Shown here one piece after another: positions 16,831 through 49,082 of a DNA stretch of 50,431 bases (position 1 is its first letter; the number at the start of each line of letters is the position of its first letter). Position numbers and translations under genes: made by a program. The stretch is taken from positions 1 through 50,431 of the forward strand of contig JAPLFL010000033.1 in NCBI GenBank assembly GCA_026390695.1, read 5' to 3'. This DNA is from Candidatus Kapaibacterium sp. Its GTDB lineage: Bacteria; Bacteroidota; Ignavibacteria; Kapaibacteriales; UBA2268. The notes under the pieces are model-generated. The model did not search any database, was not told the DNA's origin, and saw only the letters and a list, made by a program, of their open reading frames with translations.

Positions 16831-16915
16831 TCTTCTTTCTTCTTCTTCTTCTTTCTTCTTCTTCTTTCTTCTTCTTCTACCTTCTACTTTTCTACCTCCT
16901 ACCTTCTACCTTCTA
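16831..16915. repeat. Pyrimidine-rich microsatellite
   Basis: A run of ttc/ttctt units passes into ctaccttcta units, all pyrimidine-rich on the plus strand, directly next to the 3' end of the tRNA gene. It is likely to be slippage-prone. No function is evident. Confidence 0.7.
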
Positions 16916-16921
16916 TAACCG

Positions 16922-37410: not shown

Positions 37411-38466
37411 CTACAATCTCCCAATACTCGATAATTTAAAGTGTTCCGAATCCCCACGAACGCCCAACACCGTGTTCAAACCCGCTAACTTCACTTTATT
37501 AATCGTACACATAGCACACATCTCCGCATTCTCATCAATACAAGGCTTATCCTGATAAAGCAAATACTTTTTACGGTACATCGAAGGCGTAACCACCGGC
37601 ATTATTATATTAGCGCCCACACGCAAAGCCTCAGTCCTGCCCTTCGGATTGAAAACGTCCAATGCAGTAGCCGCAGCAATATTGCACGTAGGCATTAATA
37701 TCCTCAGCACAGCTATAAAATTCAATGTTTTATTATAAATTATCTGCCGATTCTCCTCCCACCACCGCTTTATCTCCCGATTTACCAGCGGAGTATCCTC
37801 ATGTATCACATACGGCCCAAGTCCAAACATGTCCGCATCTATTTCCTGAAAGAATCGAAGATCAGCCAATAAATCATCAGTCGTTTGCCCCGGTATTCCA
37901 ATCATATTGCCCGTCCCGACCTGATAATCTAAACGCTTCATATTCCTTAAACACTCCATTCTGTTCTCAAAAGAATGATCCGAAGGATGTAATTTCGAGT
38001 ATAAACTTCTAACTGACGTTTCTATACGCAATAAATACCGTGTCGCACCTGCTTCTTTCAATGATTTCAAGTAATCATAATCCAATTCACCGCAAGAAAT
38101 AGTAATTCCATATTCAGGATAAGTCAGATGAATATAATCTACCAATTGCAATAAATAATCCTTCGCTCCATTAGAAGTCATCTCGCCCGATTGCAACACT
38201 ACCGAACCAAAATTAGCTTGTTTTATAAATCTCAAACACTCTTTTATCTCATCATAATCCATTCTAAAGCGTTCTACATTCTCATTATCATGCCGAATAC
38301 CGCAATAAAAACAATTCTTCTCGCAAATATTAGAAAATTCAATTATACCTCTAAAATACACATTGCGTCCAATATGTTTCTCACGAATATTATTCGACAA
38401 TGCAAAAAGTTCCTGCTGCTCCTCAGCATTAGAAAGAAGATACTTTTTTATTTCAATCGGATTCAT
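37411..38466 (-). CDS. hydE: [FeFe]-hydrogenase H-cluster maturase HydE
   Basis: HydE is a radical SAM enzyme that acts in assembling the two-iron subcluster of the H-cluster. The radical SAM motif CEKNCFYC (Cys48, Cys52, Cys55) lies after EFSNI. The HydE-type C-terminal CX7CX2C motif is present at Cys309, Cys317 and Cys320. The long TIM-barrel segments with ISCGELDYDYLKSLKEAGA and TGNMIGIPGQT match HydE rather than BioB or PylB. The length of 351 residues is normal. It is last of the hydrogenase-related minus-strand set, 105 bp after the FN3-containing gene and behind a hairpin (38518-38550). Confidence 0.93.
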   Translation of the reverse strand: MNPIEIKKYLLSNAEEQQELFALSNNIREKHIGRNVYFRGIIEFSNICEKNCFYCGIRHDNENVERFRMDYDEIKECLRFIKQANFGSVVLQSGEMTSNGAKDYLLQLVDYIHLTYPEYGITISCGELDYDYLKSLKEAGATRYLLRIETSVRSLYSKLHPSDHSFENRMECLRNMKRLDYQVGTGNMIGIPGQTTDDLLADLRFFQEIDADMFGLGPYVIHEDTPLVNREIKRWWEENRQIIYNKTLNFIAVLRILMPTCNIAAATALDVFNPKGRTEALRVGANIIMPVVTPSMYRKKYLLYQDKPCIDENAEMCAMCTINKVKLAGLNTVLGVRGDSEHFKLSSIGRL

Positions 38467-38571: not shown

Positions 38572-39792
38572 TTACGCAGGATTCACCGGTACATCTATAA
38601 ACATCGATGAACAAGCCGCAGATTCCAAATACGAATTGATTGCTATCACATAATAATAGTATCTTTTATCGTCAATCGTTAGTTCAGAATATGTATTAGA
38701 AGCAACTGTATCAACTAAAGAGTAAGTGCCAGACGACGCACCAGTATTAACAATACTCCGATATACTTTATAATTCGTTGCACCTGTAACCGTATCCCAA
38801 TCTGCATTAACAGTAAGTGGATATACTGCTCCGGTCAATCCCAAAATCAATCCTGATGGCTGTGAAAGCGAATCATAATAAGTAAAGAGCAATTCTGTCG
38901 CAAATTCACCGAATCCGGACGAATTACGAGCGCGAACACGATAATGCTTTTCCACACCGGAACTCGGTATATAGTTAAATGTCAACGCTACATCCGCATA
39001 TATCTCCGCCCAATCAGTTCCATTGTCACTTGCTTCTATTTGATAACTCGTTGCATTTGCAACTGCATCCCAGGAGAATACATTTGTATTGAAATTATAA
39101 GCGAAGTTAGTCGGAGAAGTCATAGCGCCCCCACCACCACTGGTATCATAAATCTTATAATCATTATATTTTGATGGATTAGTATTAGCATAAATCCGCT
39201 TCCCCATTTCACAATAACGCACAACAAAACCATACAACTCATTACCACTGGCAATACGTTCACTCGTCTTTTCGTCCCGGATACTAATCGCATTTGACAA
39301 ATCATTAAGCGCGTCCTCAAATGAATTATTCAAGGCTGAATAATCAGAAAGCATACCGGACGTCAATCCAAGCGAAGCCAAATCCGTCAACCAGCCATTG
39401 CACTTCGTATAAACGTTTCTTGCCGTAAACAGAAGTACAGAATCTGACATTTTAGTCAAGCCGGACACATTCAAACTCTTATACTTTGGCGAATCAATAC
39501 CCCATTTCATCTCTACACGCATAGCCATCGTCCGAATCGTCTCACGCACCTGCGCGGCAATGTCATTTTTAGCTTGCGTAGCTTCCATTTGATCAGCCAA
39601 ATAGGTTTCATCAGCCGGCAGAATCTCAAACGCATCACACAAAGCATCAAGATTGGTCACGGCAAGGGAGGTTATCCCAAAAACAGCGAGATCTGACAGA
39701 TCCCGAGTCATAAAATTGCAAAGATTCGAGGTAAACATGCAAAGATCAGCATCAAGCATGCTATACATTCTTTTGTCTTTAGAAATAGCCAT
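38572..39792 (-). CDS. Helical-repeat plus two FN3 domains, no signal peptide; unknown function
   Basis: The start at 39792 has AAGGGA seven bases upstream. The 406-residue protein has a helical N-terminal half (about 1-210) that seems duplicated: DLSDLAVFGITSLAVTNLDAL aligns with DLASLGLTSGMLSDYSAL, each followed by long amphipathic helices. After a Gly-rich hinge (TSGGGGAMTSP) come two fibronectin type III domains (about 225-310 and 315-400; FSWDAVANATSYQIEAS and VNADWDTVTGATNYKVYRS). There is no signal peptide and no T9SS sorting domain, which is odd for FN3 proteins. It lies between hydG and hydE. I do not recognise the family as a whole. Confidence 0.75.
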   Translation of the reverse strand: MAISKDKRMYSMLDADLCMFTSNLCNFMTRDLSDLAVFGITSLAVTNLDALCDAFEILPADETYLADQMEATQAKNDIAAQVRETIRTMAMRVEMKWGIDSPKYKSLNVSGLTKMSDSVLLFTARNVYTKCNGWLTDLASLGLTSGMLSDYSALNNSFEDALNDLSNAISIRDEKTSERIASGNELYGFVVRYCEMGKRIYANTNPSKYNDYKIYDTSGGGGAMTSPTNFAYNFNTNVFSWDAVANATSYQIEASDNGTDWAEIYADVALTFNYIPSSGVEKHYRVRARNSSGFGEFATELLFTYYDSLSQPSGLILGLTGAVYPLTVNADWDTVTGATNYKVYRSIVNTGASSGTYSLVDTVASNTYSELTIDDKRYYYYVIAINSYLESAACSSMFIDVPVNPA

Positions 39793-39875
39793 TGTAAAAT
39801 CCCTTAAAATATGAATAAACAATAAATATTAAATAATCTATAAAGATATATTTTATCTTTCATAATTAAATATAA

Positions 39876-41618
39876 CTATATCAGAGAACATTGAAACCAT
39901 ATTGTTTCTGTCAGATGACATTTTTCCTCTGTCAGATGACATTTTTCCTCTGCCAGATGACATTTTTCCTCTGTCAGATGACATTTTTCCTCTGTCAGAT
40001 GACATTTTTCCTCTGTCAGATGGCATTTTTCCTCTGTCAGATGGCATTTTTCCTCTGTCAGATGGCATTTTTCCTCTGTCAGATGGCATTTTTCCTCTGT
40101 CAGATGGCATTTTTCCTCTGTCAGATGGCATTTTTCCTCTGTGCCGGCTTCTATTTTCTGATAGTAATTATCTAATAGCTTTACTAACTGAGGCGAATAA
40201 GTTCCGTTGGCATTATTTTTTATCTCTTTAATCTCTTTCTGAAGTATATTATCAGCAATAGCTTTAGTTTCATCGCTTGCGAAGTCATCTAACCACTCCT
40301 TATAAGTCAGAATAGCATTAATTTTACAAAAAGATGATTCCTTACCGCATCGAAGCATGTCCATAATCTTCCCACCGGTTCGGCTGCAACGATAACCAGC
40401 AGTACAGAAGGATGTTATCGTTTCATTTTTGGCTAAATCGCGAACTAATTCATCCAGACTGCGGGTATCGCCCAATATAAACTGCTGTTCATCGGGATTT
40501 TGCTCCTTTTCCTCAGCTGAATACCCTCCAATACCGATATGAGGCGAAGCATCGGTCTGTGTACAGCCTAATTCGAGCGCCCGATTGCGAATTGCGACCG
40601 ATTCACGCGCCGTTACGATCATTCCGGTATAAGGAACGGCCAACCGAATGACGGTAATCAGCTTTAGAAAGTCTTCGTCGGAAACCTTATACTTCGATTC
40701 CTGAATATAAGGAGCGTTGGAAGCATTCTGAAGCCGAGGAAAGGAGATTGTATGCGGCCCGACGCCGTTAAAACGCTTTTCCAATTCTATTGAATGATAA
40801 AGCAAACCCATCACTTCAAAGCGCCAATCGTACAGACCGACGAGAATACCGAGCGCAACATCATCGATACCTGCTTCAAACGCTCGATGAGTGCATGTAA
40901 GCCTCCAAAGATAATTATTTTTAAGAGTTCCTTTGGGATGAACGTAATTATAAGTGTCGTGATGATAGGTTTCCTGAAACACCTGATAAGTGCCAATGCC
41001 TGCATCTTTAATTTTACGGTAATCTTCAACGGTCATAGGCGCTGCATTGACGTTAACGCGCCTTATTTGCTGAAATTTGTCACCTTTTTGCACCTTAACG
41101 TTATAAATTGCGCGTATAGTTTCGGCAATATAGTCTGCATTTGTTTCAGCGCTTTCTCCATAGACGGCAATTATGCGTTTGTGACCGATTTTTCCGGCTA
41201 AAACTTCAGTTTCCTTAATTACTTCGTCGATGGAAAGGGTTTTGCGGATTTCATCTTTGTTATCGGTTCGGAAGCCACAGTATTGGCAGTTGTTTACACA
41301 GACGGAACTGCAATAAAGAGGAGCAAAAGTAACTATGCGGTTATCATAAACCTTTCTTTTGACTTCTCCTGCCGCTTTGAACATTTGTTGCCAGAGATTA
41401 TCATCATCGACATGCAACAGAGTGGAGACTTCATCGGGCAGAAGCGTTTCAATGTTTAAAGATTTTTGGATAATTCTATTTACTTCAAAAGGAGTAGGAA
41501 TTTTATGGTTATTTAATTGTTCCCAAATTTTGGCATCGTCGATAAAATCATAATAATCGCCAACTATTCGCTGTTTAATAGGTGTTAATTTATGAAGATC
41601 GTGTTTTGTTTGGTTCAT
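39876..41618 (-). CDS. hydG: [FeFe]-hydrogenase H-cluster maturase HydG with a Cys-His heptad-repeat tail
   Basis: HydG cleaves tyrosine with radical SAM chemistry to give CO and cyanide on iron for the H-cluster. The radical SAM motif CVNNCQYC is at Cys107, Cys111 and Cys114. The sequence through GTYQVFQETYHHDTY and GIGGYSAEE matches HydG rather than ThiH. The C-terminal auxiliary cluster motif, normally CX2CX22C, reads C405-T-A-G408 and Cys431. The second cysteine is thus glycine, while extra cysteines stand at 411 and 424. Family members end near residue 480; here residues 494-570 are eleven EEKCHLT heptads followed by a ten-residue end. It is 159 bp downstream of a REC-kinase gene. Confidence 0.9.
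   Translation of the reverse strand: MNQTKHDLHKLTPIKQRIVGDYYDFIDDAKIWEQLNNHKIPTPFEVNRIIQKSLNIETLLPDEVSTLLHVDDDNLWQQMFKAAGEVKRKVYDNRIVTFAPLYCSSVCVNNCQYCGFRTDNKDEIRKTLSIDEVIKETEVLAGKIGHKRIIAVYGESAETNADYIAETIRAIYNVKVQKGDKFQQIRRVNVNAAPMTVEDYRKIKDAGIGTYQVFQETYHHDTYNYVHPKGTLKNNYLWRLTCTHRAFEAGIDDVALGILVGLYDWRFEVMGLLYHSIELEKRFNGVGPHTISFPRLQNASNAPYIQESKYKVSDEDFLKLITVIRLAVPYTGMIVTARESVAIRNRALELGCTQTDASPHIGIGGYSAEEKEQNPDEQQFILGDTRSLDELVRDLAKNETITSFCTAGYRCSRTGGKIMDMLRCGKESSFCKINAILTYKEWLDDFASDETKAIADNILQKEIKEIKNNANGTYSPQLVKLLDNYYQKIEAGTEEKCHLTEEKCHLTEEKCHLTEEKCHLTEEKCHLTEEKCHLTEEKCHLTEEKCHLTEEKCHLAEEKCHLTEEKCHLTETIWFQCSLI
39910..40140. repeat. 21-bp tandem repeat, 11 units, inside hydG
   Basis: Eleven contiguous units of exactly 21 bp fill 231 bp. 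Each encodes EEKCHLT on the minus strand, except one with a Thr-to-Ala change. Six units nearer the gene start use tgc for Cys, and five nearer the end use tgt, so the array has two sequence subtypes that arose by block duplication. There are no spacers. Because 21 is a multiple of three, several other frames stay open across it and look like genes; they are not. Confidence 0.97.
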
Positions 41619-44420: not shown

Positions 44421-47400
44421 CTAATTAATATTTTTTAAAAGTTCTTTAGATAACTCCAATGCTTCATCAAATTCGTATTTTTGAATTTTTGAGGAAATCT
44501 TATTTAAATTCTCAATATATATTCCTATTCCAGGAATAGTTATTAATTCATTTATTTTGGAAGAAGCATCAAAATCATCATCTTCAAGTAATTCAATAGA
44601 TTCATTAAGTAACTTAATGAAAAAATCTTTATCAAATTTAATATCCTCAACCGGAGCCAGAGTTTCATCTTTTTCGGAAATTGCTTCTAAGGACTTCAAG
44701 ACGGCATTTAATTTTAAGTTCAATTCATCCAAAGCCGAGCCGAAGGTTTCCATATAATGATCGGATTTTAGCAAATGTTCCATACGTTCGGCACTTTTTT
44801 GAAGATCAGTAGCTCCGATATTTCCCGATACTCCTTTTAAAGTATGGGCAGCCCTTACAGATTCTTCAATATTTTTCCGTTTAACCATTTTGCTTAAACT
44901 TTCGATAAACTGGGAGTAGTTCTTTTTGAAATCTCTCAATAATTTCAAGTATAGCTTTTTATTATTAGCTACTCTTCTTATACCTTCGTAAATATTAATA
45001 AATTCCAATTCAGGAATAAAGACATCTTCTTTTGGAGCCGGTTCCTGTACTTTTTTTGTATATTTTCTAATCTTCTTAGGATTTATCCATTTGATTAAAG
45101 TTGCAAAAACTTCATCTGGATCAATTGGCTTGGAGACAAAGTCCATCATTCCTACTTCCAGGCAGTCTTCTTTCACGCCGATCATAGCATCTGCTGTCAT
45201 GGCAACAATTGGAAGGAGTTTATAATTTTCAAATTTCCTTATTTCACGTGTTGCTGTATAACCATCCATTACTGGCATTTGTAAATCCATCAGAACAACA
45301 TCAAAACGCGAGGGATTACCTGAATTTTTTACCATTTCAACTGATTCGGCTCCGTTGTTTGCTATTTCGACTTCAAATCCGGCAGCTTCCAAAAGTTCAG
45401 TTGCGACTTGCTGATTAATTTCATTATCTTCGGTTAGTAATATCCTTGCTCCCATTATTGCTTTTAATTGCTCAAGATGTTTTGTCCCTTTTCTATCACT
45501 CTTATGTGCTCGTTTAACATCCTTACCAAATACTTTCATAATCGAATCAAAGAGTAAAGAATCATTTACCGGTTTGACTAAAAATCCATTAAATCCAGCC
45601 TCTTCTGCTCTTTTCAGAACTTCCTCACGTCCATAAGCTGTTACCATAATAATTGCCGGAGTATGCGGTATCCTATCGTCTTGTTTTATTTGCTCAACGG
45701 TTTGAATACCATCCATCTCAGGCATTTTCCAATCCATCAAAACAAGTTCAAAAGGATGATCAATACTATTTTCCAATATTTTTATAGCTTCTTTACCAGA
45801 ACTTGTAGTTGTTACATTAAAACTAAACGATGTCAAAGTATTTTTTAGCATTTCAAGTGATGTTTCATTATCGTCACAGATAAGAACATTCATTCCTCTC
45901 AGATCAATGCTCGGTTTAAATTCTTTTTTTCTTTCGAGTAAAGGAATTCCCAATTCAGCAGTGAAAATAAATGTACTACCAACACCGATTTCGCTTTCTA
46001 CCCAAATTTCACCGTTCATCATTTCAACAAGTCTCTTACTTATTGTCAGACCTAATCCTGTTCCACCATATTTCCTTGTAGTAGAGGCATCTGCCTGAGA
46101 AAATGCTTTGAATAATTTATTTCTTTGCTCATCTGTCAGTCCAATTCCAGTATCTTTAACGGAAAACTGCAATTTATAAATATTTTCACGGGTTTCAAGA
46201 AGTTTAGCTGAAATAACAATTTCACCGAAATGTGTGAATTTAATGGCATTACCGGATAAATTTGTTAAAATCTGACCAATTCTTAAAGGATCACCCACCA
46301 GATTAAACGGTAAATTAGGATCAATATCAAATATAAGCTCCAAACCTTTTTCCTGTGCTTTTAAAGTAATTAAATTAGATATAGTATCAAAAACACCGTC
46401 AAGTTCAAATTCAATATTTTCGATATTAAGTTTGCCTGCCTCAATTTTTGAAAAATCAAGAATATCATTAATTATACCTAAAAGCGCCAGTGATGATCTT
46501 TCAATTTTTATCAAATAATCTTTTTGTTTAGGAGTTAGTTCAGTTTTTAAAGCTAAATGCGAAAGTCCGATAATTGCATTCATAGGAGTACGGATTTCAT
46601 GACTCATATTAGCAAGAAATGATGATTTTGCCTGAGTTGCTGCTTCGGCCACTTCTTTTGCTATTTTTAATTCCCTTTGAGCTTCTAATCTTTCGGTTAT
46701 ATTATAAGCCGTTATCAGAACCGAAAGCTTCTTTTCGTAATCAATTAATGCAACATTGAAATTAAACCACGCCAAATCACCATTCTTCTTGATTACCTGC
46801 AATTCATATTGCGAAACTTCCTGTTCACCAGTTAAACGACGAATATATCTGTCTCTTACCATAGCTCGAAAATCTGGTGCAACAAGTAAAAGGAAATTAT
46901 CCAAATGATAAAATTCATTCTCAGAATAACCGATGGCATTTGAACAATAAGGATTTACATATTTTATCTTAGCATCCTGAAGAATGAGGATTGCAACGGA
47001 TGTTGTTTCTGCAAGGACTCTGAACTTTGCTTCACTCTCAAGGAGATTGGTTTCTATAATTTTGCGTTCCTCAACTTCGTCCTGAAGCATTTCATTTGTA
47101 CTTTCAAGAGCAACCGTTCTTTCAGTAACAAGATTTTCAAGATTTTCGCTATATTCACCGATTTTATTAACTAAATAGAAATGGCAATTATCTTCTTTAT
47201 TCAATCCATTAAAAATAGCTTTTGCCATACCTTCACAATTATTATATCCACAGCTGGCACAGTTTTTAATATCCGTATCTGTGAATTTTCTCATTTTTTT
47301 GTAAATCGCTTCAAGTTCTTGATCATTAGGTGTTTTAATGCACTCATGCAGTAATTCCGAATGATTAACGTAAGATCGGTCGTATAACCCAGTTTTCCAG

Positions 47401-48449
47401 TATTTATTTAAAACTTCATGAAGATTCTCAACCGATGCAGTATCCCCGTTGTTTGTCTTATAAATTTCCTGCATTTTTTTACGTCTTTGATTTACGTGAA
47501 ATTCAAGTTCGTCAGCAGTTTTATTATGATTATTTGTACCCGTACCGCCATTGCAGCCAAGTTCGCAATTAAGGCAATCAATAAGTAATGGATTATATCC
47601 TTTTTCTATTAAATCAGGAATCTTATCAAAATAGTCATAAATGATTTTAGACCCCTCGATTTTTCTTGTTTTCGTTCCGATTCCCGGCACAACCCTCTCT
47701 GCTGTTGTAAGTAAGCCACCAGGACTTGAAAAGAGCACTGCACGTTCTGCCGGATCATTATCAAAATCTACTTCAGGAAAATTGGATATTTGGATATTAT
47801 TGACATCAATATATTTTTGAATTTTACTAATGATTACATTATAATCGCCAATACCGACTTCTTCAAATTCCCGTTTCTTTGCTACACATGGCGAAATCAC
47901 CAATATTTTATGTTCATTAAATGCCGGATAATATTCTCTTATCATTTTCATTGTGTGCATCATTGGACTGTCGCAAGGAGCGAGATGTGGCAGTAGTTCC
48001 GGCTTATACATTTCAACATAAGAAACAAGTGCCGGACATGGCTGAGCGATTACTAATTCCGGATTTTTATCTTTAATATGTTCAATATAAGATTTTACAG
48101 TTAATTCGGCACCGAAACTGACATCGAAAACTGCGTCCACTCCCATTGATTTGAGCCAACCATTAAAATTCAGATATTTATCAGGAAATGATGAAGCTAT
48201 TGCCGGAGCAACAATTGCGACAACTTTAACTCCATCAACTAATGCTTTCACCGCAATATCAAAATCATCAACCGCTATTCTTGCATTATGTGTACAGGCA
48301 TTGACACAATTTCCACAACCGATACAAAACTCATCAAGAAGATGAATCACGCTCTGGCTGCCATCATTGCAGTATTTAACCGGACAAACCGATATACACT
48401 GGTGACAATTTACACACCTTTCTTCATCAACACTTACAACTTTAATCAT
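44421..48449 (-). CDS. [FeFe]-hydrogenase-like sensor fused to hybrid histidine kinase (Fd-Hyd-FeS-PAS-HK-REC-REC-Hpt)
   Basis: The ATG at 48449 has AAGGA eight bases upstream; a TTG lies six codons earlier. Residues 12-52 hold two [4Fe-4S] motifs (Cys12/15/18/22 and Cys42/45/48/52). About 75-330 is an H-cluster domain with Cys138, Cys188, Cys295 and Cys299 in the three family loops. The loop residues that normally give a proton-relay Cys and an active-site Met are Pro137 and Ser186. CASCGYNNC (397-405) plus Cys422 form another Fe-S motif. PAS is at about 475-590, HisKA has His617, HATPase spans about 715-835, receivers have Asp906 and Asp1055, and Hpt has His1202. There are no membrane segments. 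It most resembles sensory group C [FeFe]-hydrogenases, here joined to a full phosphorelay. Likely signal H2 or redox state. Confidence 0.9.
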   Translation of the reverse strand: MIKVVSVDEERCVNCHQCISVCPVKYCNDGSQSVIHLLDEFCIGCGNCVNACTHNARIAVDDFDIAVKALVDGVKVVAIVAPAIASSFPDKYLNFNGWLKSMGVDAVFDVSFGAELTVKSYIEHIKDKNPELVIAQPCPALVSYVEMYKPELLPHLAPCDSPMMHTMKMIREYYPAFNEHKILVISPCVAKKREFEEVGIGDYNVIISKIQKYIDVNNIQISNFPEVDFDNDPAERAVLFSSPGGLLTTAERVVPGIGTKTRKIEGSKIIYDYFDKIPDLIEKGYNPLLIDCLNCELGCNGGTGTNNHNKTADELEFHVNQRRKKMQEIYKTNNGDTASVENLHEVLNKYWKTGLYDRSYVNHSELLHECIKTPNDQELEAIYKKMRKFTDTDIKNCASCGYNNCEGMAKAIFNGLNKEDNCHFYLVNKIGEYSENLENLVTERTVALESTNEMLQDEVEERKIIETNLLESEAKFRVLAETTSVAILILQDAKIKYVNPYCSNAIGYSENEFYHLDNFLLLVAPDFRAMVRDRYIRRLTGEQEVSQYELQVIKKNGDLAWFNFNVALIDYEKKLSVLITAYNITERLEAQRELKIAKEVAEAATQAKSSFLANMSHEIRTPMNAIIGLSHLALKTELTPKQKDYLIKIERSSLALLGIINDILDFSKIEAGKLNIENIEFELDGVFDTISNLITLKAQEKGLELIFDIDPNLPFNLVGDPLRIGQILTNLSGNAIKFTHFGEIVISAKLLETRENIYKLQFSVKDTGIGLTDEQRNKLFKAFSQADASTTRKYGGTGLGLTISKRLVEMMNGEIWVESEIGVGSTFIFTAELGIPLLERKKEFKPSIDLRGMNVLICDDNETSLEMLKNTLTSFSFNVTTTSSGKEAIKILENSIDHPFELVLMDWKMPEMDGIQTVEQIKQDDRIPHTPAIIMVTAYGREEVLKRAEEAGFNGFLVKPVNDSLLFDSIMKVFGKDVKRAHKSDRKGTKHLEQLKAIMGARILLTEDNEINQQVATELLEAAGFEVEIANNGAESVEMVKNSGNPSRFDVVLMDLQMPVMDGYTATREIRKFENYKLLPIVAMTADAMIGVKEDCLEVGMMDFVSKPIDPDEVFATLIKWINPKKIRKYTKKVQEPAPKEDVFIPELEFINIYEGIRRVANNKKLYLKLLRDFKKNYSQFIESLSKMVKRKNIEESVRAAHTLKGVSGNIGATDLQKSAERMEHLLKSDHYMETFGSALDELNLKLNAVLKSLEAISEKDETLAPVEDIKFDKDFFIKLLNESIELLEDDDFDASSKINELITIPGIGIYIENLNKISSKIQKYEFDEALELSKELLKNIN

Positions 48450-49082
48450 TTGATTTCCTTTCAACAAAATCTAAGAAACAATGTGTCATAGTGATAAATT
48501 AAAAGGATTTTTGAACTCTCAATTTCACATTATTTCTTTTATAATTCATGTTTTTTAATTATCAATTTTGAAATTTCACAATTTTATAAATTAATGATGT
48601 TTCTATTAATGATTATCATAAAAAATATATTTTTGCTAAATTTTTATCAATAAAGTACAATCAAGGAATAAGTTATATCGTTTCCTACTTGAAGGCTGTC
48701 ATTTGTGCGTATGCAGAAATCTCCTGATTTGTATTGGAAGGGGATTCCCGCATGCGAGACTGTGTAAAAACTCACAACATCTACTGAATTGTCATTCCCG
48801 CGCATGCGGGAATCCCCATCCAGTGCCACTTTAGGAAATTCCTGCATTCGCAGGAATGACAGAAATGAGGCTTTTGAGACAGCCTCATGCTCGGGAACTG
48901 TCATGATTTAAAAAAATCACAAATTAGAATGAAAATATTATTCATCCAATGACTCCCAAGTCATCGGATGAATTGATTATTTTCGGAAGAATGACAATAA
49001 TTCCTAATTCATTAAGGAAATGATATTATAAGTTGAAAGGAATCAAGTTATATTAACCCAAATTCTTCATAAGTCAATAAAA
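48450..49082. other. Intergenic region with a long palindromic repeat
   Basis: There is no credible gene. The stretch includes the upstream region of the sensor kinase gene (AT-rich, 48450-48670) and a composite repeat (48674-48886). A minus-strand frame across 48647-48904 is repeat sequence. I could not place a promoter for the hydrogenase-sensor operon with confidence. Confidence 0.65.
48674..48886. mobile_element. Composite palindromic/MITE-like repeat
   Basis: This long copy starts with tatatcgtttcctacttgaa and aggctgtcatttgtgcgtat. It contains degraded and intact palindromes (attcccgcgcatgcgggaat and attcctgcattcgcaggaat) and ends ggcttttgagacagcctc, the MITE terminal repeat. The first 90 bp recur at 50137-50220. 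The inverse of its start (ttcaagtaggaaacgatat) follows directly after the element at 1591-1721, so these modules are joined in different orders. Confidence 0.65.

Follow-up and report, generated by a model that had tools for sequence, protein, structure and literature searches.

Short tandem duplications are usually ascribed to slippage, a process that leaves unit lengths free, and the VNTR minisatellites that are used for strain typing have units whose length varies from locus to locus. Borg tandem repeats consist of perfect units with an A-rich bias, with 14-38% of the intergenic unit lengths divisible by three, and the Borg peptide repeats contain no cysteine (PMC9879509). The heptanucleotide TAACTGA and other repeats of this length are reported from Beggiatoaceae, Cyanobacteria and some Bacteroidetes (PMC4679880).

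The stretch of DNA analysed here (the window, 50,431 nucleotides) is the whole of contig C107 of a draft genome of 4.63 Mb in 129 contigs, all of which were searched. The surprise in this genome is that it holds many unrelated tandem repeats whose unit length is in most cases 21 bases or a multiple thereof (hereafter 21n). A literature search by title and start of the abstract did not find, among the matches listed, a published account of a bacterium with 21-bp-quantised arrays. The Borg repeats are the nearest in their spread and in the addition of peptide repeats: they too are scattered over one genome and nearly absent from another, lie in both spacers and ORFs, have mostly unique units and give rise to peptide repeats (PMC9879509). 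However, the present genome shows an excess of 21n units with arrays mostly outside ORFs, whereas most Borg intergenic unit lengths are no multiple of three; the units here are imperfect (98% matches in hydG, often 88-96% elsewhere), whereas those of Borgs are perfect; and every hydG unit encodes a cysteine, a residue absent from the Borg peptide repeats (PMC9879509). The heptanucleotide repeats similarly form many intergenic direct-repeat sets within one genome, but TAACTGA is one fixed heptamer, while the units found here are mostly unrelated and those of 21 bp have no internal 7-bp similarity (PMC4679880). REP elements with their Y1 transposases (RAYT) are resembled in that some of the 42- and 84-bp units have a REP-like palindrome and the genome has four Y1 matches; the hydG unit, in contrast, is a weak palindrome without a Y1 match on its contig and does not qualify as a REP/RAYT element. 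With VNTR minisatellites the arrays share their tandem arrangement and their potential for copy-number change, inside and outside genes.

The locus comprises the following features, all on the minus strand:

39876-41618, minus strand: hydG, 580 aa, which reads through the array (ORF list, translation, TIGR03955)
40203-41549, minus strand: the stretch of hydG that the HydG model covers, residues 24-472 (TIGR03955)
40140-40154, minus strand: the IEAG-T junction, at which relatives go on with an ERDLYF-like end and a stop (translation, C-terminus comparison)
39909-40139, minus strand: eleven 21-bp units (GAGGAAAAATGYCATCTGRCA), ten EEKCHLT and one EEKCHLA (TRF, unit search, translation)
39876-39908, minus strand: ETIWFQCSLI, the ten residues past the last unit, and the stop codon (sequence, translation)
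38572-39822, minus strand: next downstream ORF (416 aa), which matches the PQLLE family weakly at 20.9 bits, under the cut-off of 80 (profile search)
37411-38466, minus strand: hydE, the partner maturase (profile search, TIGR03956, 316.5 bits versus 254.6)
44421-48467, minus strand: ferredoxin-hydrogenase-PAS-histidine kinase-receiver-Hpt fusion (domain search)

The original prediction had placed eleven Cys-His heptads at the end of HydG, and these are real: both the translation and a single TRF call (39907-40142, 11.2 copies, 98% matches, score 430) recover them, with the array at 39909-40139, one base off the earlier coordinates. The eleven units run head-to-tail from 40139 down to 39909. 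Ten of them read EEKCHLT as had been claimed for the whole array, the eleventh being EEKCHLA. They encode a tail of 77 residues (494-570 of 580) with 11 Cys and 11 His, and vary at two positions, namely TGC/TGT (6 and 5 units) and a single ACA to GCA change. Such an array is far beyond chance, and its recent expansion and variation in copy number appear plausible from the near-identity of the units. It does not resemble a CRISPR array, in which repeats are parted by unique spacers, as its units are head-to-tail. In a single-sequence AlphaFold run the tail was modelled as coil with a pLDDT of about 27-30, the mean over the whole run being 35.4, values that tell nothing about its structure. Residues 506-571 gave a weak PDB sequence match to a streptococcal M protein (E 1.8e-4), which probably reflects composition only.

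The remainder of the protein is that of a HydG. It scores 424.8 bits against a cut-off of 312.15 with the equivalog model TIGR03955, the tail lying outside the matched portion, and it contains the radical SAM motif CX3CX2C as CVNNCQYC. The auxiliary-cluster motif, in which CTAC (CX2C) is joined by a third Cys that follows the first by 26 residues, was not found in the window HydG, which at this site (residues about 408-434) has CTAGYRC, as does the relative L106; CTAC was present in the 22 other proteins recognised, with a pattern that failed to recognise 6 of 30. We read CTAGYRC as a variant, the model score still placing the protein in the family. With regard to the C-terminus, 34 of 80 genomes, including the genome itself, gave a HydG match at E ≤1e-60, and the end of the protein could be compared in 29 of the 33 relatives. 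An RDLYF-like end, written [RHK]D[LIVQ][YF][FLV], closes 27 of these 29 proteins, while L117 ends in RDIYI and L128 lacks the motif; the pattern was drawn from the relatives compared here and is not a published criterion known to us. The window HydG has no such end, and the array sits where the conserved C-terminus belongs: L122 reads ...LQRIEAGERDLYF, and the window at the equivalent place ...QKIEAGTEEKCHLT. None of the 29 relatives, all from other genera, carries a tail, so that a metal-binding tail kept in orthologues was not found among them. Tail-free relatives with an ordinary end had been named in advance as grounds for dropping the prediction, and the absence of the tail from all 29 makes it lineage-specific rather than false.

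The gene for the partner maturase HydE lies two genes downstream of hydG, and a HydF match on contig C55 is barely above the cut-off (326.7 versus 325.55 bits). Genome-wide, the sole match to the hydrogenase domain PF02906 is the sensor-kinase fusion at 44421-48467, which is a possible client of the maturases. HydE, HydF and HydG are all present, yet they may serve a sensor only, and because this fusion is the sole PF02906 match, selection on HydG may be special or relaxed. Elsewhere in the window, positions 16831-16919 hold a low-complexity tract rich in TCT and, after it, a heptamer array of CTTCTAC (TRF).

The hydG unit is not confined to hydG. A search of the whole genome with two mismatches allowed found 20 units, of which hydG holds 11 and contig C115 the other 9; on C115, an array of 10.1 copies by TRF (L037 6695-6906) occupies the spacer between a 630-aa and a 413-aa ORF. 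The type IX secretion-like C-terminus of an ORF on L037 suggests Bacteroidota. Two mostly-repeat ORFs, of 76 and 205 aa, overlap the C115 array; in its EEKCHLT frame, read by eye, there is a TGA a little upstream and no ATG, GTG or TTG before or in the units. The best six alignments between the two loci extend at most 43 bp beyond the hydG array, so the arrays are alike and the flanks unlike. Most of the variants across both arrays leave the peptide of the EEKCHLT frame unchanged (GAG/GAA, TGC/TGT, ACA/ACT, with ACA/GCA the only exception), a weak hint of coding that would by our estimate arise by chance in about one case in nine. The inverted repeat TTTAAAGA/TCTTTAAA, which was noticed before the flank test described below was made, surrounds the C115 array. 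Beyond this genome, the exact pattern of the unit was present in 1 of 60 genomes, its own, and blastn with the hydG array found, among 198 genomes, its own and a 25-base match in G007, with no such array in the other 197. Searches of genome_contigs, from which own-genome records may be omitted, gave nine places with a single unit each and no array, a few of which are expected by chance on our estimate. Two places were found in viral_contigs, one plasmid record matched at 75.3% over 29% of the query, and no match was found among phages.

A weak heptad-peptide search matched many further places in the genome, at which TRF reported unrelated units with a like period. Since this route is biased, further samples were taken. 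Counting TRF arrays with a score of at least 80 and a period of at least 10, the period was 21n (21, 42, 63, 84 or 210 bp) in 53 of 66 arrays over 916,759 bases, about a fifth of the genome. The share was 22 of 26 on a set of 20 contigs selected by number (253,832 bases), 23 of 25 in stretches of C41, C61, C110 and C115 that were chosen for their hits (396,041 bases), 1 of 2 in the window and 7 of 13 in the rest of contig C15 (216,455 bases), a later sample taken as a test. The six exceptions on C15, with periods of 31, 43, 44, 50, 86 and 216 bp, count against a strict 21-bp rule, which is not absolute. The 29 arrays of 21n period found in 470 kb of the two samples that were not chosen for hits extrapolate to roughly 285 21n arrays genome-wide. 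Many 21n arrays consist of two to three copies only, and periods of 15, 18, 24 and 27 bp, the other codon multiples, are nearly absent. Ordinary duplication takes place as well, as is seen from three two-copy repeats that are near-identical but have other periods or a gap (79, 41). Among relatives, 2 of 9 arrays were 21n at score 80 (589,634 bases): 14 genomes (400,000 bases) yielded 4 arrays, two of them of 42 bp on one locus, and seven more (189,634 bases) yielded 11 arrays at a score of at least 60, five of these at 80 or above, none 21n. No arrays were found at the 29 HydG loci of relatives (121,295 bases, partly overlapping the other relative samples).

The same period emerges without TRF. 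In 700,304 bases of the genome, a sample that includes the hit-chosen stretches, exact 13-base repeats occurred at lags of 21, 42, 63, 84, 105 and 126 in 30, 35, 22, 28, 16 and 14 loci, respectively, compared with a mean of 0.29 loci at the other lags between 15 and 440, of which the highest were 5 (lag 15), 4 (lag 85) and 3 (lag 101). The adjacent lags of 20, 22, 41, 43, 62 and 64 gave 1, 0, 1, 0, 2 and 0 loci in this sample, and lags of 31, 32, 52, 53, 73 and 74 gave none. With the arrays masked, lags of 42, 63 and 84 still had 5, 3 and 3 loci against a mean of 0.17. In the relatives the 21n lags reached 0-3 loci in the 400,000 bases and 0 in the 189,634 bases. The 21n period is a property of the genome.

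At the level of sequence, the 72 21n arrays with a score of at least 60 fall by blastn into 53 families, 43 single and ten shared, hydG/C115 being one of the latter; the units are thus mostly unrelated, and common ancestry does not account for the period. A heptamer origin of the 21-bp units was rejected, the lag-7 self-match being 0.268 versus 0.264 in shuffled units (n=35). Among the 42-bp units (n=23), internal 21-bp similarity was present in 11 (shuffle P ≤0.05) and absent from 12. By our reading, seven of these 12 have a REP-like palindrome and three an inverted repeat of another kind; the other two have neither. The REP-like palindrome is carried by some 84-bp as well as 42-bp units. Pairs of this palindrome spaced 33-53 bp apart number six in the whole genome, at five loci, five pairs being spaced at 42 bp and one at 41, with a spacer that differs at each locus and unrelated flanks; one other genome of 296 searched had such pairs, at spacings of 34 and 40. 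A hairpin in every unit was not supported for the 21-bp units (mean z -0.15, n=35). Taken as a group, the 42-bp units did support one (9 of 23 at p ≤0.05, mean z -1.1), and the 63-bp units gave a weak signal (n=7, mean z -0.58). In hydG, the unit is no clear palindrome (z -1.7, p 0.05). By raw count, A4/T4 tracts occur in 19 of 39 units.

Inverted repeats of at least 8 bp flank 5 of 56 arrays, compared with 1.0 when flanks were re-paired and 0.9 when they were shifted as controls, and the longest flanking inverted repeat has a mean of 5.02 versus 4.79; this excess, which includes the C115 case noticed beforehand, is suggestive only. Inverted repeats of 8-10 bp flank L084 694-905, L077 11733-11883, L189 13356-13550, L072 9271-9521 and L038 212-298, as if these arrays were hairpin-grown. 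With our own simple ORF caller, 32 of 46 21n arrays (three at contig edges) lie outside ORFs, in a genome in which spacers make up 15% of the DNA, and 14 of 46, including hydG, were called coding, several in doubtful ORFs. Over 56 arrays, the mean number of open frames, by our own averaging, was 3.2 of six, no more than chance for short units, and four arrays, two of them 21n, have stops in all six frames. The four Y1 transposase matches are on C52, C19, C22 and C15, and none on the hydG contig. On C15, the arrays with periods of 43 and 44 bp, which contain a long palindrome (C15:210111-211232, L189 10111-11232), flank the Y1 match at C15:210307-210645, an arrangement that looks like a RAYT with its REP elements. 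An ordinary-looking CRISPR array, with a spacing of ~66 bp and a constant 30-base part, lies near a Cas1 gene (L192 11255-17396, C102). Cas1, one reverse transcriptase and the four Y1 transposases were located, and no tie to the arrays was found.

Taken together, the tail of HydG is probably a DNA-level tandem array read in frame, which either originated at the 3' end of the gene or reached it by copying, and not a purpose-built domain. The array would have taken the place of the last codons and the stop, and the frame would have been kept since 21 bp amount to seven codons. The original prediction offered two readings of the tail, of which the fallback, a neutral minisatellite, fits best, as the unit also forms a spacer array on C115 and 21n arrays occur at many loci, mostly outside ORFs. 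Its other reading, a tail for metal binding or oligomerisation, gained no support, since unrelated non-coding arrays have an equal period and the conserved C-terminal motif is displaced. That the tail is a selected strip of this kind, aiding iron handling, seems unlikely: the regularly placed Cys and His residues (11 of each) on an iron-sulfur enzyme, the preserved frame and the mostly synonymous hydG/C115 variants speak for it, but the unit is also repeated in the C115 spacer without a usual start codon, 0 of 29 relatives have the tail, the conserved end is missing from the window HydG, and the genome-wide period is left unaccounted for. The Cys-His tail is most likely incidental, although it could later have been put to use, or be harmful to the enzyme. 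Codon selection, by which arrays encoding heptad peptides would have a seven-codon unit, is very improbable; 21 is divisible by three and 14 of 46 arrays were called coding, but the other codon multiples are nearly absent, 32 of 46 arrays lie outside ORFs, and the open frames (mean 3.2 of six over 56 arrays) are at chance level, with four arrays stopped in all six. An array made or miscounted by the assembler is hardly credible. The assembly is a draft of 129 contigs in which 21-bp arrays reach the contig end on C76 (L046 3158-3285) and C67 (L047 2944-3307), and a 42-bp REP-like array inside an ORF on C41 (L067 10049-10336) is broken by a run of N, so the number of copies is uncertain and longer arrays may break the assembly. 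However, the units differ by substitutions (98% matches in hydG, often 88-96% elsewhere) that assembler copying would not yield, and draft assemblies of relatives have no 21n peak.

As to the cause of the period, 21 bp correspond to two turns of B-DNA, and steps of two turns point to helical phase because only multiples of 21 hold exact phase at 10.5 bp per turn. We tentatively propose for this lineage a mutational process, largely independent of sequence, by which DNA is duplicated in two-turn quanta (21 bp, and 42 at palindromes); it would seed arrays genome-wide and at times rewrite protein ends in frame, as in HydG. Arrays would start as duplications whose length is set by helical phase, through misaligned re-copying in two-turn steps in which hairpins might assist, and would later grow by ordinary slippage or unequal exchange. 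Blocks of array may also be copyable between loci; some were copied, as in hydG/C115 and the composite arrays on C73 and C61. No enzyme was linked to the duplication process; fill-in of staggered breaks joined by Ku was rejected, Ku not being found in this genome. It is also possible, short of probable, that the period reflects survival and not birth, phased arrays being kept as platforms for a DNA-binding or architectural protein. The exact phasing of 21 multiples, the empty three- and five-turn lags (31, 32, 52, 53) and the location of arrays mostly in spacers would agree with this, but since the units are for the most part unrelated, one sequence-specific protein could not bind every one of them, and many 21n arrays have two to three copies, where phasing counts little. 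Survival bears on what causes the period and does not conflict with an incidental tail; birth of arrays in two-turn steps is slightly favoured as the origin of the 21-bp rule.

If unrelated loci share a 21-bp quantum, the helical phase of DNA would be linked to how arrays are born or to how they survive. Furthermore, non-coding repeats can turn into odd new protein tails on conserved enzymes, and chemistry such as that of Cys-His metal strips should not be inferred straight from a repeat.
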